Source: Acidobacteriota bacterium (GTDB lineage Bacteria > Acidobacteriota > Terriglobia > Bryobacterales > Bryobacteraceae). Taken from it: 64,000 bases of DNA. The position numbers and the translations under genes were made by a program. How positions within the stretch are numbered: the first letter of the stretch is position 1; the number at the start of each line of letters is the position of its first letter. Positions 37,299 through 44,773 of this stretch are shown piece after piece. Location of the stretch: contig CANIVU010000012.1 in assembly GCA_947470805.1 (NCBI GenBank), positions 1 to 64,000 on the forward strand, read 5' to 3'. The notes beneath the pieces are model-generated. The model was not told the origin of the DNA and made no database searches. It was given only the letters and a program-made list of their open reading frames with translations.

Positions 37299-38810
37299 AT
37301 GCCACGGCTCTGGATGTTCCTCGCCCTCACCGTCACCCTCGCCCTCGCCCAACTCCGCCAAACCCAAACCACCGCCCACCTCCAACTCACCTCCAACTAC
37401 CCCACTCGCATCTACCTCCAGAAATCTGAAAAGCCCTTCCGCCTCTTCCCCGTCGACGCCATTCTCCCCATCAAAGTCGATCTCTTCTACCGCGATACCC
37501 TCTGGCGCCGCACACCCAACCCGCAGACCCTCGAAGTCGCCGCTAACGACCAGTCCCACTTCTACCTGCTCTCGAAAACCGCCACCTTCGATCTCCCCCC
37601 CGGCGATTACAAAATCGAAGCCTACCGCGGCCTTTTCTTCACCCCCATCACCCAATCTTTCACTCTCAAACCCGGCGAAACCAAACCCATCAACCTAACC
37701 CTCACCCGCTGGAACGAATCCACCAAAAACTGGCTCTCCGGCGACGATCACATCCACCTCCCCCGCACCGTCGCCGAAAACCAGACGTTCCTCCAATGGC
37801 TCGAAGCCGAAGATCTCAACGTCGCCAATTTCCTCCAGCTCCAACGCCAAATCGACGCCGCGCCCCAATACGCCTTCGGCCCCGCCGGCGAAGCCAAGAG
37901 CAAAGGCTACTCCATCCGCTCCGGCCAGGAGTCCCGCAGCGAATACTATGGCCACATCGAACTCCTCGGCGGGAACCAAATCGTCCGCCCGCTCAGCGTC
38001 GGCTCCATGTACGCCAACGAACCCGCTGCCGCCCCCTGGCCCGCCGAAATCTTCAAGAAGGGCAAGGCCGCCGCCGCACTCACCGGCTACGCTCACTTCC
38101 ATGGCTCCATGGCCCATTCCACACTCCTCATGGACCTGGCTCTTAACAACATCCAATTCCTCGAAGTCTTCCAGTTCGGCAAGCTCTGGACCGAAGAGTG
38201 GTACGAACTCCTCAATGCCGGCTTCCGCGTCACCGGCATCGCCGGCAGCGATTTCCCCGTCCCCCTCGGCCGCTTCCTCCCCTGGCCCAAACACATCCCC
38301 CTCCTCGGTCCCGAACGTACGCTGGTGAAGGCGCAACCCGGCCAATCCGCCTACACCGCCTGGGCCGCCGCCGTCGCCAAAGGAGAGGTAACAGTTTCCA
38401 ACGGCCCGCTCGTCGAAATCACCAAAAACGGCAACGAAATCACCGCCACCGCGACCTTCCATCAGGACATCGAGACCTTCGAACTGGTCCGCAACGGCGA
38501 AGTCATCGCCACCGCCAAGACCGGAAAATCACTCACCCTGAAAGCCCCCGCCACCGAGGCCTGGTATGCCGCCCGCGCTGCGTTGAAGAAGGTGGACGGC
38601 GAACCCCAAGTCCAAGGCCACACCAACCCCCTCTACATCGGCAACCCCAAGCCCGACCCCGCCACCCGCGCCAAACTTGCCGCCCGCTGGCAGGCCGAAG
38701 TGGCCTATTACAAATCCGCCAACCTCCCCTTCTCGACGGACGCCGAACGCCAGCAGTTCTTTTCCCAGGCCGAACAGGCACTTTCTGCCCTCACGATGCA
38801 AGAGCGGTAA
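37299..38810 (+). CDS. CehA/McbA-family metallohydrolase (PHP-like), secreted
   Basis: A 503-residue protein with a signal peptide (about 1-18). A beta-sandwich N-terminal domain extends to about 135. The PHP-type metal-binding motif WLSGDDHIHLP follows near residue 145, a variant of GDxHxH. Later histidine and aspartate clusters are GYAHFHGSMAHS and GIAGSDFPVPLG. The C-terminal part has a beta domain (FELVRNGEVIATAKTG). The family includes carbaryl hydrolase CehA, but most members have unknown substrates. It is followed 55 bp later by the VanZ-like gene. Confidence 0.85.
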   Translation: MPRLWMFLALTVTLALAQLRQTQTTAHLQLTSNYPTRIYLQKSEKPFRLFPVDAILPIKVDLFYRDTLWRRTPNPQTLEVAANDQSHFYLLSKTATFDLPPGDYKIEAYRGLFFTPITQSFTLKPGETKPINLTLTRWNESTKNWLSGDDHIHLPRTVAENQTFLQWLEAEDLNVANFLQLQRQIDAAPQYAFGPAGEAKSKGYSIRSGQESRSEYYGHIELLGGNQIVRPLSVGSMYANEPAAAPWPAEIFKKGKAAAALTGYAHFHGSMAHSTLLMDLALNNIQFLEVFQFGKLWTEEWYELLNAGFRVTGIAGSDFPVPLGRFLPWPKHIPLLGPERTLVKAQPGQSAYTAWAAAVAKGEVTVSNGPLVEITKNGNEITATATFHQDIETFELVRNGEVIATAKTGKSLTLKAPATEAWYAARAALKKVDGEPQVQGHTNPLYIGNPKPDPATRAKLAARWQAEVAYYKSANLPFSTDAERQQFFSQAEQALSALTMQER

Positions 38811-38865: not shown

Positions 38866-39711
38866 ATGACCAAACTTCTGCAGTGGCTCCACGCACACAA
38901 GGCCTTCGTCTGGCCGCTGGTCTTCGTCTACACGCTCGCGGTCTCGTTCCCGCATCTGATTGTGCAGAACTGGATGCGCTCCATCATGGGGACGACTGTC
39001 GCTGAATACGGGGTCTTCTATGGCCGCTTGGCCTTTATCGCTGCCGCCCTCATCGCCGGTTTCACTATCTCGTATCTCCTCGCCCTGAAAAAACATCCCG
39101 CCCGCCGCGACCTCCTCATCGCCTGGGCCGCCACGCTGGTAATGGCCTACCTTGCCTGGAAATACCTCAGCGTCAACAACTCGGAACTGGTCCACTTCGT
39201 GCAATACGCCATTCCTGGCGTCGTACTTATCGCCCTAACACGCTCCGTCACCGATTCGCTCGCCTGGCTCCTCATCATGGGCGGCTTTGACGAGGGATAT
39301 CAATTCTGGGGAATCAATCCCACCTGGGGTATTCCCTGGGACTTCAACGACATCGTCATGGACCTCTTCGGCGGCGCCTTCGGTGTCTTCTTCGGCCTCG
39401 GCTTCCTCCGCACCGTCCCTGCCCGAGCCATCAACTGGCGCCGTCCCGGCATCATCACGCTCGCCTCCATCTACGCCACCGGTGCCCTCCTTCTCGCCAC
39501 CGGTTTCGTGCTGCTCTATGAGGACAAAGCCAATCCCAACTACTGGTTCTCCCTCAGCCGCCTCCGCAACAAAAGCTTCTGGTTCTATGACGCCACTTGG
39601 GGCCCCAGGACTGTTCACGCCATCGCAATTGAAGAAGGCCTTGTTATCGTCCTCCTCATCCTCGCCCTGTACTCTATCTTCGACCGGCGCCACGAGGTCA
39701 TCGACCAGTGA
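38866..39711 (+). CDS. VanZ-like integral membrane protein
   Basis: A 281-residue protein with about seven hydrophobic segments. The central part ELVHFVQYAIPG, then FDEGYQFWGINPTWGIPWDFNDIVMDLFGGAFGV (spanning about residues 146-178), follows the VanZ pattern of paired acidic residues between helices (DEGxQ, DxxDxxxD, G). VanZ proteins confer low-level teicoplanin resistance in Gram-positives, but the wider family is poorly understood and often accompanies envelope glycoconjugate genes. Its stop overlaps the STT3 start as GTGA, so the two are translated together. Confidence 0.75.
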   Translation: MTKLLQWLHAHKAFVWPLVFVYTLAVSFPHLIVQNWMRSIMGTTVAEYGVFYGRLAFIAAALIAGFTISYLLALKKHPARRDLLIAWAATLVMAYLAWKYLSVNNSELVHFVQYAIPGVVLIALTRSVTDSLAWLLIMGGFDEGYQFWGINPTWGIPWDFNDIVMDLFGGAFGVFFGLGFLRTVPARAINWRRPGIITLASIYATGALLLATGFVLLYEDKANPNYWFSLSRLRNKSFWFYDATWGPRTVHAIAIEEGLVIVLLILALYSIFDRRHEVIDQ

Positions 39712-41705
39712 GGTCAACCCGCTGGGCCCTCGCCCTGGCCTGCGCCATCGCCTTCTGCTTCCGCGCCCTGGTTCCCCTCTATAACGTCTTCCAGGCCGGC
39801 TTCATCAACTTCCAGGAAACCGACGCCTGGTTCCATGTCCGCGTCATGGAGCACCTCGTCCGCCACTTCCCCTTCCGTCTCCAGGTCGATCCCTACGGCT
39901 CCATCCTCGACGGCCAGCGTGTCGACACCGGCCCCTTCTACGACTGGATCCCCGCCCTCCTCGCCCTCCCGTTCCCGGACGAACTCCAAACCATCGCCGC
40001 CTGGTATCCGGCCATCCTCGGCGTGTTTATCATCGTTGCCGTCTACTTCCTCGCACAAGCCCTATTCGACGAAACCACCGCCGCCCTCGCCGCCCTCGTC
40101 GCCGCTGTGCTCCCCGGCCACTTCCTCGCCGTCTCCAGCCTCGGCTTCACGGACCATCACGTCATGGAGAGCCTGCTCTCCCTCCTCGTTCTCTACTTCC
40201 TCGTCCTACGCCGCCACATCGCCGCCGGCCTCACCCTGGCCGCCTATCTGCTCACCTTCGTCGGCGGTGCGTTCCTCGTTGCCATTGTCATCGCCTGGGC
40301 CGCCTATGGCTTCCTGCGCGATCCCAAGGACGTCGACTACGCCCCCAACCTCCCCATCGTCTTCGCCATCCCCCTGGTCCTCGCCGCGCCGTTCCATCAG
40401 ATTCTCTGGATGGAATACACCCTCGCCGCCCTCGCCGGCGGCATCGCCTTAACCGCTGGCGCCGCCCTCTGCCGTCGCTTTCCTTACCCCCGCGCCATCT
40501 GGCTCGCCGCCATCGCCGTCGCAACCGCTGCCGTCATCGTCGCCATCCCCCAGTCGCTTCAAATTCTCCGCTACCTTGCCCCCTCCCGTTCCGGGGCCGC
40601 CGCCGGCGTCGGCGAACTCCAATCCATGTGGTTCATCAAGGGCTACTTCTCTCTCGAATGGCCGTGGATGGAGTTCGGTGGCGTTCTCATCCTCGCCATG
40701 GCCGGTATCCCCGTTCTCTTCGAAATCGCCGTCCGCAACCGTCGCCCCGCGCTGGCCCTATTCACCCTCTGGAGCCTCTCCGTCTTCGGCATGGCTATGA
40801 TGCAAGTCCGCATGGCCTACTACTTCGCCCCCGCCGCCGCGATCGTCGCCGCTTATCTCCTCGTCCGCGCCTGGAACACCGTCGCCACAAAACTGCGTCC
40901 CATCGTCATCCTCGCCGCCATTGGTCTCGTATTCGCCCCCAACGTCTGGCGCCTCCTCCTCGGCCCGCCCAATCCCCCCATCGCTGTCAACGCCCCCTGG
41001 CGCGACGCGCTCGACTGGCTTCGTTCCCAAACCCCCGAGCCCTTTGGCGATCCCGCCGCCTACTACGCCAGCAACGTCGATCCCCAATCGGTCCGCTACG
41101 GCGTCCTCTCCTGGTGGGACTACGGCTACTGGATCACCGCCATCGGACGCCGCGTGCCGTTAACCAACCCAACCCAAAAGAACGCCTCCGTCGCCGCGAC
41201 GTTTTTCCTGGCCCAGTCGGAGCCAGAGGCGATGAAGGTCATGGACCAGTGGCGCCAGCGGTATGTCATGCTGGACGATCGTTTGGCCGACGCCATCTTC
41301 CCCGTGCTCTTCAATTTCCACCCGTCCGCCCGCCGTGCGGAGTATCTGGTGGAAGGCTACGAACGCCAACCCGACGGAAAGCTGGAACTCCGCCGCTTCT
41401 ACCGCGATGCCTACTACCAAACCATGGTGGCCCGCCTCGGTCGTGGCGGAGCATCCGCCCCAGGAACCGGACCTTCGTCCGTCGTGCTGCTATCCGCTCC
41501 TGGAGCGGTGTACAAGCAAATCGCCCATTTCACGAACATCCAGGACGCCCAGCGCATCCAACAGCGTTGTGCCCGCGAAGGCTGTGTTCTGGTAGGGGAC
41601 AAGCCAGACCAGCCCATCTTCCCCATCGAACCGCTGGCGCAACTGAAGCAGGTCTACCCCACCACCCGTGGCCCCGCCTCCGTCTCGATCTTCGACCGAC
41701 CCTAG
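39708..41705 (+). CDS. STT3/AglB/PglB-type oligosaccharyltransferase
   Basis: A 665-residue polytopic membrane enzyme with about 12-13 hydrophobic segments and a C-terminal soluble domain from about 430. The catalytic landmarks of STT3 enzymes are present. An early acidic loop has ETDAWFHVRVMEH (metal ligand D near residue 39). GFTDHHVMESLL is the second metal motif. GVGELQSMW is a candidate for the glutamate of external loop 5. WWDYGYW near residue 469 is the hallmark sequon-binding motif. Such enzymes transfer a lipid-linked glycan to asparagine in N-X-S/T on the outer face of the membrane. It starts with GTG coupled to the VanZ-like gene. A PEP-CTERM protein rich in sequons is encoded tail-to-tail 8 bp away. 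Glycan-assembly genes are not in the window. Confidence 0.85.
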   Translation: MRSTRWALALACAIAFCFRALVPLYNVFQAGFINFQETDAWFHVRVMEHLVRHFPFRLQVDPYGSILDGQRVDTGPFYDWIPALLALPFPDELQTIAAWYPAILGVFIIVAVYFLAQALFDETTAALAALVAAVLPGHFLAVSSLGFTDHHVMESLLSLLVLYFLVLRRHIAAGLTLAAYLLTFVGGAFLVAIVIAWAAYGFLRDPKDVDYAPNLPIVFAIPLVLAAPFHQILWMEYTLAALAGGIALTAGAALCRRFPYPRAIWLAAIAVATAAVIVAIPQSLQILRYLAPSRSGAAAGVGELQSMWFIKGYFSLEWPWMEFGGVLILAMAGIPVLFEIAVRNRRPALALFTLWSLSVFGMAMMQVRMAYYFAPAAAIVAAYLLVRAWNTVATKLRPIVILAAIGLVFAPNVWRLLLGPPNPPIAVNAPWRDALDWLRSQTPEPFGDPAAYYASNVDPQSVRYGVLSWWDYGYWITAIGRRVPLTNPTQKNASVAATFFLAQSEPEAMKVMDQWRQRYVMLDDRLADAIFPVLFNFHPSARRAEYLVEGYERQPDGKLELRRFYRDAYYQTMVARLGRGGASAPGTGPSSVVLLSAPGAVYKQIAHFTNIQDAQRIQQRCAREGCVLVGDKPDQPIFPIEPLAQLKQVYPTTRGPASVSIFDRP

Positions 41706-41713
41706 ATACGCGT

Positions 41714-42438
41714 TTAAACCCGTTTCCGGAACCACGCCAGCCCCGCCAAGCTCGCACCGAGGATCAGCAACGTTGCCGGTTCCGGAACCGGCGATGTCGC
41801 ATCGCCCACCCCCAGGAACAGGCTGTCCGGCAAACTGATCGACGAACTGGCATTCATCGTTCCAATCGTCAGCCGCATGCTCATCGACATATTCGTCGCG
41901 TACTTGATATCCACGCCCTGGTCCAAGTAGGAGAACACCGGGTCGATCGACAGATTTCCCGCCACCATCGTGGAGACTTCCACCCCCCGGTCCACGCTCA
42001 TGTTGTAGCTCATGAAGCCCGAACTTGCCCCCCCCTCGACGTACCTTCCACCCCGCCAAAAACAGGCAAAAATGGCCCATTGGCGTCCACTCCACCCAGA
42101 AAAAGATCTGCCACAATCAGGAAGGTGCCCTGGCACGCTATCCTCGATACACAAGCGATCGTGGCATTCGAAAACCGCAACTCCAACGGCCCCGCAATCG
42201 GCTGTCCCACTTCGAATGGCTGCCCGCCGGCAAGCAAAAACACATCGCCGCTGAACGAAAAGCCATTCGTTGGCGTATTGGCAATGGAGAACGGAGAATC
42301 CAAGGGCGCAAACGTCACCGGCAGTCCAAAAGGCACCCCTTGGGCGCGCAATTGATAGGAGCTCACGCTCGTGATCGATCCGCCAAACACTGAAACACTA
42401 AAGACCAATCCGCACAATATACGTAAGTAAAACAACAT
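41714..42438 (-). CDS. PEP-CTERM sorted surface protein, frame interrupted at a G8 run
   Basis: The first part, from the ATG at 42438, encodes a signal peptide (about 1-19) and about 120 residues of beta-rich sequence, then runs into TGA at 42010. The second part lies in another frame and ends with VPEPATLLILG, a hydrophobic helix and RKRV, the classical PEP-CTERM exosortase signal. The frames meet at eight G (C on the printed strand, 42028-42035). Nine G would join them into one protein of about 240 residues. The joined product has five N-X-S/T sequons (NAT, NMS, NLS, NMS, NAS). It may be a true mutation, a phase-variable tract, slippage or a sequencing error. No exosortase gene is visible. 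Confidence 0.7.
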
Positions 42439-44773
42439 GGATCAGATTATAACAGGTGGACTTGGGAGCGATCTCCGCTTCACCGCGCGCGCTGCGGCGC
42501 CAGCCGGGCTTTTTCGCCGTGGCTGTTTGCACGTTAGCCCTCGGCGTTGCATCGACAACCGCCGTCTTTTCGTTGTTCTACCAGGTCCTGCTGCGCACTC
42601 TCCCTGTGCCCGAACCCCGCGAACTGGTCGTCTTCCATGCCGATAATCTGGACCTTCCCGGCAGTGTCAGCAAGGACAACTCCGAATCGGTCTTCTCCTA
42701 TCCGATGTACACGCGTCTCCGGGACGGGATGCCTAGCTGGCTAGGTATCGCCGCCCGCAGCAGCTCCTCCGGGCAACTTCTCACCGAGGGCGGGACCGAG
42801 CGAGTTCGCATCGAAATCGTCTCCGGGAACTTCTTCGAGACCCTCAAACTCACCCCGTTCGCAGGCCGGCTTTTTAGTACCGCGGACGACTCGGTGCGGG
42901 GCGGAAACGCCGTCATCGTGCTCTCGCATGGCTAGTTTTTGCGTCATTTTGGTGCCAAAAGTACCGTTTTAGGCACCAAAATCACCCTTTCTGGACACGT
43001 TTTTGAGGTCATTGGAGTGGCTCCGGAGGGGTTTAAGGGGGTCCTCGGAGGGGACGATCCGGAGGTGTACCTGCCTATCTCCATGCGCGCGGTGATCAAC
43101 CCCGGCTGGGACGGCTTCGACCGGCCTAACGTCCGCTGGCTCAACATCTTAGGCCGGCTGCCGGCCAATCACGACACCGCCTCGGTGCATCCGCTGTTCT
43201 CCGCCATCGTCCGCGACCACGTCGAACAGGCCAAAATCACCAACCAAAACGTCCGCCAACGCATTGAAAAAGCAACACTTACCCTCCTGCCAGCCGCCTC
43301 CGGGCTCAATGAACTGAAGCGCCAGTGGCAGGAGCCGCTGGTGGTGTTGCTGGCGATGGTCTCGCTGCTGTTCCTGATCGCCTGCGCCAATCTCGCTAAC
43401 TTGTTGCTGGCACGAGGGGTTAACCGGAATCGGGAGATCTCGATCCGTGTTTCCCTGGGTGCCACCCGCGCCCGCATCATTCGCCTTTTATTGATGGAAA
43501 CCGCCGCTATTACCGTTACCGGAGCCGCGATTGGTGCCGTTTTAGCACCGGTTTTGGTGGATTTATTGATCCGTTCCATCGCCGATGACGATGGCGGAAG
43601 CGGCTGGCTGGACGCGAAGTTGAGCCTGCCAGTCCTTTTGTTTTCAATGGGTTTGGCGGGATTGAGTACACTGCTCGCTGGATTGGTGCCGGCGCGGCAG
43701 TTCTTCGTCGCTGCGCAGGTTGCTATGTCCCTTGTTTTGTTGACGGTAGCCGGGTTGTTCGGGCGCAGCCTGGGGAACCTGCTGCAGTTCGATCCGGGGT
43801 TCCAGGCGCGGGAGTTGGCGCTGTTTTCAACCAGCCCGAAGCGGGCGGAGTTTATCGCGGAGGTCGAACAGCGTCTGGCGGCCTTACCGGGTGTGAAATC
43901 AGTGAGTTACGCCGAATTCGGGCCGCTCCAAAACTCGACATCGAGCTCCAATATTCAACTCGAAGGCTACCGGGCCGGCGAGGAAGAGAACATGGACTGC
44001 AACGTAATGGTCGTGGGCCCTAAGTACTTCGAAACATTGGGGACAGCGCTGTTATCGGGGCGGGGTGGCGAGGTCCGGGACGGGGCGGAGGCGCCAAAAG
44101 TGGCAGTGGTGAACCAGGCGTTCGTGAAGCGGTTTTTGAAGCCCGGTGAGAACGTGATCGGTCGGCATTTGTCGATTGGCGGGGGGAATGTACCGCTGGA
44201 TATTGAGATCATCGGCATCGCGACGGACACCAAGCACGGCTCGCTCCGGGAGACGGTTGCGCCGACATTTTTTCTTTCTTATCAACAACGTATGGACAAC
44301 CGGCGGCGGCTCCCGCAAGCCACCTTCTTCGTTCGTTCGGTGCGCCCGGTGCCCGCGACGGCGCTTCGCGCCGTCGTTAACGCCGCCGATCCGCTCGTGC
44401 CGGTGTACAACATACGAATGATGGAAAAGGCTGTCGACCGGTCCATTTCGACCGACCGGCTGATCGCGGGGCTTTCGGTGGGGTTTGGTGTTCTGGCGCT
44501 ACTGATTACGGCGGTGGGGCTGTACGGCGTCTTGAGCTATTTGACGCGGCAACGGACGAAGGAGTTTGGCATCCGGATGGCGCTCGGGTCCTCGCGGCAG
44601 CTGTCGGGGCCGGCCGGGCGATTGCGGCGCAGTTGTTCGGCGTTGCGGGGCTGGATCCGGTGGTGCTGATGGCCGCGCCGGCGGTGCTGGCGGTGGTGGC
44701 GCTGTTGGCTGCCGCCTGGCCTTCGATGAAGGCGGCGGCGGTCCAACCAAGCGAAGTATTACGGCATGAGTAG
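42437..44773 (+). pseudogene. Orphan MacB/FtsX-type ABC permease (ADOP family), degraded
   Basis: The original product would be an 800-residue acidobacterial duplicated orphan permease: an N-terminal helix, a MacB periplasmic domain, FtsX helices (LIACANLANLLLARG), then a second periplasmic/FtsX unit (GLYGVLSYLTRQRTKEFGIRMALG). Four lesions are visible. (1) DLRFTAR and ALRRQPGFF are in different frames around the GC run near 42485, consistent with loss of one GC unit. (2) TAG at 42933-42935 replaces an expected tryptophan after VLSHG. (3) About 25-30 residues are missing between LVPAR and QFFVAAQ near 43.69 kb. (4) After MALGSSRQ near 44.6 kb the rest (AIAAQLFGV to PSEVLRHE) is in another frame with about 30 residues lost. 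A GTG at 42456 begins the longest surviving frame. Confidence 0.8.
42446..42451 (-). promoter_or_regulatory. -10 box (TATAAT) of the PEP-CTERM gene
   Basis: A perfect TATAAT, seven bases (CTGATCC), then ATG at 42438. It is the best-matching hexamer among the boxes found next to start codons in this window. Confidence 0.6.

Follow-up and report, generated by a model that had tools for sequence, protein, structure and literature searches.

Bacterial N-glycosylation is little documented beyond Campylobacter and its kin, in which the oligosaccharyltransferase (OST) PglB follows an extended sequon rule, D/E-X-N-X-S/T. One paper calls polyisoprenol-based N-glycosylation uncommon in bacteria (PMC4973528). 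The C-terminally sorted S-layer glycoprotein of Haloferax is described as both N-glycosylated and cut by an archaeosortase (PMC4245038). The exosortase/PEP-CTERM system was tied to exopolysaccharide genes in its founding description, the accessible text of which names no OST (PMC1569441). Known VanZ reduces the binding of lipoglycopeptide antibiotics to cells (PMC7146870). The stretch analyzed here, called the window, comprises positions 1 to 64,000 of contig CANIVU010000012.1 (assembly GCA_947470805.1) from an Acidobacteriota bacterium of the family Bryobacteraceae with a genome of 8.7 Mb in 220 contigs. In this window a gene for a VanZ-like membrane protein, a gene for an STT3/AglB-type OST and a gene for a PEP-CTERM protein lie side by side. 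Judging from sequence, the three genes probably represent an N-glycosylation module in which an AglB-like transferase has a dedicated family of PEP-CTERM substrates. This reading is based on the genes themselves, on the conservation of their linkage and joint occurrence, on catalytic residues that are intact, and on a sequon enrichment confined to the linked family.

The VanZ-like protein (38866..39711, + strand; 281 amino acids, polytopic) was characterized by its open reading frame (ORF), conserved motifs, PF04892 matches within its family and a structure model. The STT3 gene (39708..41705, + strand; 665 amino acids, GTG start) was identified by its ORF, profile matches and alignment, and its start overlaps the VanZ-like stop by 4 bp (GTGA). 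Eight base pairs separate the STT3 stop from the end of the PEP-CTERM gene at 41714 on the - strand. This gene is not one open frame, as the reading frame of its N-terminal part differs from that of its C-terminal part, with the switch at a run of G near 42030. The ORF of the N-terminal part (42010..42438, - strand), with its final few codons lying beyond the break, contains a signal peptide-like start, a two-Cys region and the sequon NAT. The ORF of the C-terminal part (41714..42154, - strand), genuine from about 42030 down, contains the sequons NMS, NLS, NMS and NAS, an LPDS motif and then the PEP-CTERM anchor (41723-41791, - strand), which matched PF07589 at residues 122-144 of the ORF with 30.5 bits, above the cut-off of 20.7. 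The preliminary description of this DNA, made from the letters alone, had proposed the coupled VanZ-like and STT3 genes, with WWDYG and acidic motifs in the latter, and the tail-to-tail PEP-CTERM gene 8 bp away; ORFs, profiles and alignment confirmed this arrangement.

By its sequence the window STT3 is a member of the STT3/AglB oligosaccharyltransferases, and transfer to Asn is predicted for it. It passed the models for the AglB core (PF22627; E 6e-18, 65.7 bits, cut-off 27) and the N-terminal STT3 domain (PF02516; E 3.4e-14, 53.6 bits, cut-off 24.5), and the AglB of Archaeoglobus fulgidus, the structure of which is known, aligned with it at a phmmer E of 3.6e-37. The residues E37, D39, D149-H150-H151, E303, R368 and W469-W470 were invariant across an alignment of 11 rows, and D471 was nearly so; the metal-binding residues are thus kept, as the preliminary description had supposed. 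The first acidic motif, E37-T38-D39, is encoded at 39816..39824 and the second metal motif, to which the DHH in A. fulgidus AglB aligned, at 40152..40160. E303 (40614..40616) is the Glu in the external loop motif of the SVSE/TIXE type, and WWDYG (residues 469-473) is encoded at 41112..41126, all on the + strand. The enzyme thus belongs to the same family as archaeal AglB and the archaeosortase A-associated STT3, with which it shares the AglB core and the metal and WWDYG motifs. Unlike the latter, it is bacterial, its partners are a VanZ-like protein and a family of PEP-CTERM proteins, and it scored 324.1 bits against TIGR04154 (E 2.2e-96), below the cut-off of 450. Compared with Campylobacter-type PglB, the predicted reaction and the sequon class are alike, as follows from general knowledge of that enzyme, but the window STT3 did not reach the cut-off of the STT3-PglB core model PF21436 (14.2 versus 23 bits), no preference for an acid at position -2 was seen, and no pgl cluster is present at the locus.

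Near relatives of this STT3 were found on acidobacterial metagenome contigs, at 93% identity (best segment) in locus L162 and 90% in L164, which is labeled Candidatus Sulfopaludibacter sp. SbA3. Comparison with L164 indicated purifying selection on the STT3 gene (omega 0.164) and, less strongly, on the VanZ-like gene (0.325). For the PEP-CTERM gene, intact in L164, the two segments flanking the break likewise gave values indicating purifying selection (0.146 and 0.057). A mobile origin of the module was considered and rejected, as among 72,556 plasmid records only one, from a haloarchaeon, contained STT3, and no viral contig encoded a relative of the VanZ-like protein.

The linkage of the three genes was studied in 200 genomes drawn from the same bacterial family. 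Since the profile searches scored the best candidates of each genome (for example the best 15 of 39 for the PEP-CTERM family profile), absences are not absolute. STT3 was matched in 24 of the 200 genomes, including short remnants in G149 and G158, and the VanZ-like protein in 17, one of them weakly (G089). Both occurred in 11 genomes, and in 11 of 11 they were neighbors (Fisher 5e-8), with only PEP-CTERM genes between them in G172 and G195; in six genomes our own gene calls gave a 4-bp overlap of STT3 and VanZ-like gene. A homologous PEP-CTERM gene directly adjoined the pair in 6 of the 11 (the window genome G000, G078, G125, G133, G172 and G195), in differing orders, and in a seventh, G052, it lay about 1.5 kb away. 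The conserved neighborhood anticipated by the preliminary description was therefore found. By our own calls, the end of the PEP-CTERM gene directly abuts the start of the VanZ-like gene in L072, whereas in L082 and L156 the two share 1 bp.

The linked PEP-CTERM proteins of these seven genomes have in common the two-Cys stretch and, ahead of the anchor, an LPDS-like motif; this motif was present in none of 32 other PEP-CTERM proteins of the window genome. When one member (P0003) was used as a query, the best matches, anchor-only ones aside, were in STT3-positive genomes. A profile of the linked family without the anchor (A4) matched 10 of the 200 genomes, and 9 of these 10 belong to the 11 with STT3 and VanZ-like protein (Fisher 4.6e-13). 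As 7 of these 9 are training loci or close kin, the fair test consists of G071, G111 and G145. Two of these three have the STT3/VanZ-like pair (p about 0.001), and in those two the gene is not beside STT3.

Sequons were counted as N-X-S/T and compared with shuffles of each mature sequence, with the reversed motif as an added control; ORF calls, start choice and signal-peptide filtering were done with simple scripts of our own. The window PEP-CTERM protein contains five sequons, NAT (42160..42168), NMS (41996..42004), NLS (41948..41956), NMS (41885..41893) and NAS (41846..41854), all on the - strand, compared to 1.35 expected by shuffling (p = 0.007); the preliminary description had put the expectation at one or two. 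In a DNA alignment inspected by eye, four of the five correspond to sites in L164 and L162, the last of them with a shift of two residues, and L162 has lost one NMS. The L164 protein contains five sequons versus 1.72 expected and was excluded, as a near-copy, from the first set of five proteins (c3: window, L063, L072 and two of L076), which had 21 sequons versus 10.6 expected (reversed motif 14, p 0.001). The second set of six (c10: four of L082 and two of L156) had 27 versus 12.3 (reversed motif 15), a count reached in 0 of 2000 shuffles. The unlinked family members of G071 and G111 together had nine versus 5.04 (p 0.044), and the member of G145, a genome without STT3, had three versus 2.93.

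The controls were flat or below expectation. Of the 49 PEP-CTERM loci above the cut-off in the window genome, eight gave no ORF; once short ORFs, ORFs lacking the motif and the protein of the window itself had also been dropped, 32 control proteins were left, which had 66 sequons versus 80.6 expected (reversed motif 83). In eight STT3-less genomes of the genus, 25 proteins were scored (30 loci given, of which 4 yielded none), with 49 sequons versus 67.2 (reversed motif 81). A set of 120 secreted-like proteins from the window plus 400 kb had 218 versus 226.9, and p 0.01 was reached by 0 of 120. The excess is therefore special to the STT3-linked PEP-CTERM family. PEP-CTERM proteins in general were rejected as substrates on these counts; the proposal of the preliminary description thus stands for the neighboring protein as a putative local substrate, but not for PEP-CTERM proteins at large. 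The extended sequon of PglB was also rejected, since an acid was present at -2 in only 3 of 53 sequons of 12 putative substrates. This scarcity fits an AglB-like enzyme.

The arrangement could in principle be fortuitous: after its acquisition, STT3 may have come to lie next to a VanZ-like gene unrelated to it and to one PEP-CTERM gene out of about 49, with the sequons reflecting noise of composition. Although the patchiness of STT3 in the family, the abundance of PEP-CTERM genes and the single-protein p of merely 0.007 are compatible with this, the three families are found together repeatedly, across several genera, in varying gene order and at 29-56% STT3 identity, and the deep STT3 tree speaks against one recent transfer. 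Chance is therefore considered very improbable.

A stronger competitor is that STT3 acts as a general OST for many envelope proteins, the PEP-CTERM neighbor being one substrate or a co-regulated bystander. The gene for this neighbor is damaged both in the window and in L162, where the copy has several deletions, while STT3 is intact in both and under purifying selection (omega 0.15-0.16); the protein may thus be dispensable or not the sole substrate. Likewise, G055 and G146 retain the STT3/VanZ-like pair, and the substrate family was not detected there with the A4 profile. The flat counts of the 120 secreted-like proteins and of the other PEP-CTERM proteins argue against a general OST, but only weakly, as a general substrate set need not be enriched. 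We regard this explanation as rather unlikely.

Besides the damaged genes and the two genomes lacking a detected substrate, further observations weigh against a module with a dedicated substrate. The motif WWDYG is altered in some module STT3s, to WWDFG, WWDAG, WWDTG or WWGSG (the last in G133, locus L170). This drift possibly reflects an altered reading of the sequon; G133 has one of the weakest sequon excesses (three versus 1.9 in each of two proteins), although a link with its WWGSG is suggestive at most. Other PEP-CTERM proteins near STT3, outside the two main sets (L073, L078 and two of L080), had nine sequons versus 7.0 and thus no clear excess. Several members were not significant singly (p 0.19 for L072, 0.30 and 0.28 for the two of L076, 0.30 for G071), and the shuffle p values of both sets overstate independence because their members are mutually related. 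At the module in the window, no genes for glycan assembly were identified. An exosortase was present in 23 of 23 genomes tested and therefore does not discriminate. Finally, a Phycisphaerales record (L189) in which a VanZ-like gene adjoins STT3 was rejected as a full planctomycete module, because its anchored-looking neighbors had one sequon versus 1.3 expected and Pfam gave no match for the one neighbor that was tested.

The label VanZ-like derives from the protein family rather than from the window protein. No VanZ match was found in Pfam for the latter, but 7 of 8 aligned family members, the window protein being one of the 8, matched PF04892 at E<=1 (best 6.1e-6). These matches are weak, the two members for which bit scores are given having 25.5 and 28.2 bits against a cut-off of 30.1, and they span the H..QY / DE..Q / D...N region. 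The motifs VNNSE..H..QY, DE..Q, DFND, LSR and WG...H are conserved. The structure model had a mean pLDDT (predicted local distance difference test score) of 86.2 and gave no fold match in the PDB at E 0.001; the best VIA Z was 3.8, which is uninformative. The model of the PEP-CTERM protein was poor (pLDDT 55.7). Beyond the family, a search of 396 genomes of the phylum gave VanZ-like matches in eight; besides the window's own, strong ones were found in G516, in which the gene adjoins STT3 in divergent orientation (L287), and in G216. The G216 protein (763 amino acids; L278:557-2848, G216:C219; also L286) is a fusion of a VanZ-like domain with an alpha-L-fucosidase domain (PF01120 E 5e-75, PF04892 E 2.2e-5), hinting at glycan work for this branch of VanZ. 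Linkage to STT3 and, in one genome, this fusion distinguish the branch from known VanZ.

The VanZ-like protein may alternatively be the partner of the PEP-CTERM protein, in sorting, anchoring or lipid modification, with STT3 acting elsewhere. The two genes adjoin in L072, L076, L082 and L156, and five family genomes (G020, G030, G087, G151 and G198) have the VanZ-like gene without an STT3 match. However, profile searches detected neither STT3 nor the PEP-CTERM family in those five, 9 of 10 genomes with the PEP-CTERM family have both other genes, and the sequon excess points to STT3. This partnership appears unlikely. The neighbors of the VanZ-like genes without STT3 (L151-L155; genera g20, g24 and g30) vary.

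The 24 STT3 loci of the family (window, L063-L082 and L156-L158) were also compared with respect to their neighbors. A VanZ-like gene was present at 11, an ATP-binding cassette (ABC) transporter with glycosyltransferases at 6, neither at 7 and both at 0. The six ABC-type loci (L064, L065, L066, L068, L077 and L080), which carry glycosyltransferases of the GT4 type and in 5 of 6 also of the GT28 type, look like fuller glycan assembly loci; their STT3 is a related enzyme flanked by these genes instead of a VanZ-like gene. In a tree of 66 STT3 rows the VanZ-linked enzymes of the family fell within a set of 20 rows with a Shimodaira-Hasegawa-like approximate likelihood ratio test (SH-aLRT) support of 95, with an ABC-linked group nested inside, while the STT3s of L287 and L189 were placed elsewhere. 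From the VanZ-or-ABC pattern it may be speculated that the VanZ-like protein replaces the flippase side of the pathway. A bolder version, which we put forward as doubtful, is that of a dedicated bacterial OST for one sortable surface-protein family, in which the VanZ-like protein replaces both ABC flippase and glycosyltransferases and delivers the lipid-linked glycan; this would be a separately arisen counterpart of the archaeal AglB/archaeosortase pairing, and the VanZ superfamily would gain a native biochemical role.

For the probable module with a dedicated substrate family, we infer the reaction and the sequence of its steps, as well as the glycan, the lipid carrier and the job of the VanZ-like protein. 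The PEP-CTERM protein would be exported, and at the outer face of the inner membrane the STT3/AglB-like enzyme would transfer a lipid-linked glycan to Asn at several N-X-S/T sites. The VanZ-like protein, proposed in the preliminary description to assist in handling glycan or lipid, would act with the transferase and most likely present, move or recycle the carrier. Before or during processing of the anchor by exosortase, glycosylation would take place. The exosortase gene sought after the preliminary description was present as a single copy on another contig (PF09721 E 1.1e-70 at G000:C33). The locus thus resembles the exosortase/PEP-CTERM system in its PF07589 anchor and in the exosortase of the genome, but differs in the linkage of a substrate-like protein to STT3 and in the location of the exosortase gene on another contig. 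At the exosortase locus (L102:6735-9951, G000:C33) a BacA-type undecaprenyl-diphosphatase gene is found two genes away (both by Pfam), and the ORF between them appeared by eye to be pyruvate kinase-like.

The module would bring together two systems of the cell envelope, sorting by exosortase and glycosylation by STT3, that are commonly considered separately. An enzyme linked to a likely substrate with a sequence signature is a directly testable idea with a ready acceptor for glycoproteomics, and it offers a genetic handle on VanZ-like proteins, the native job of which is unclear. Full-text searches found no papers on STT3 with PEP-CTERM or on oligosaccharyltransferase with N-glycosylation in Acidobacteria, and co-mentions of VanZ with oligosaccharyltransferase were unrelated by title. 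No published description of an STT3/VanZ-like/PEP-CTERM module was found in these searches, in which subscription journals were thinly covered.

Next to the module lies an ABC-permease-like gene (42456-44669), which forms two ORFs in the window but a single ORF of 818 amino acids in L164. As this gene is also interrupted, some of the frame breaks may be sequence errors; together with the break in the PEP-CTERM gene, the split suggests assembly indel errors or local decay. Upstream of the module is a CehA-like gene (37299-38810). In the congener G149 (L160:8023-8190) all that is retained of STT3 is a stretch of 57 residues matching its C terminus, possibly a remnant of decay, and this stretch is located near a gene with a C terminus resembling that of the CehA-like gene.

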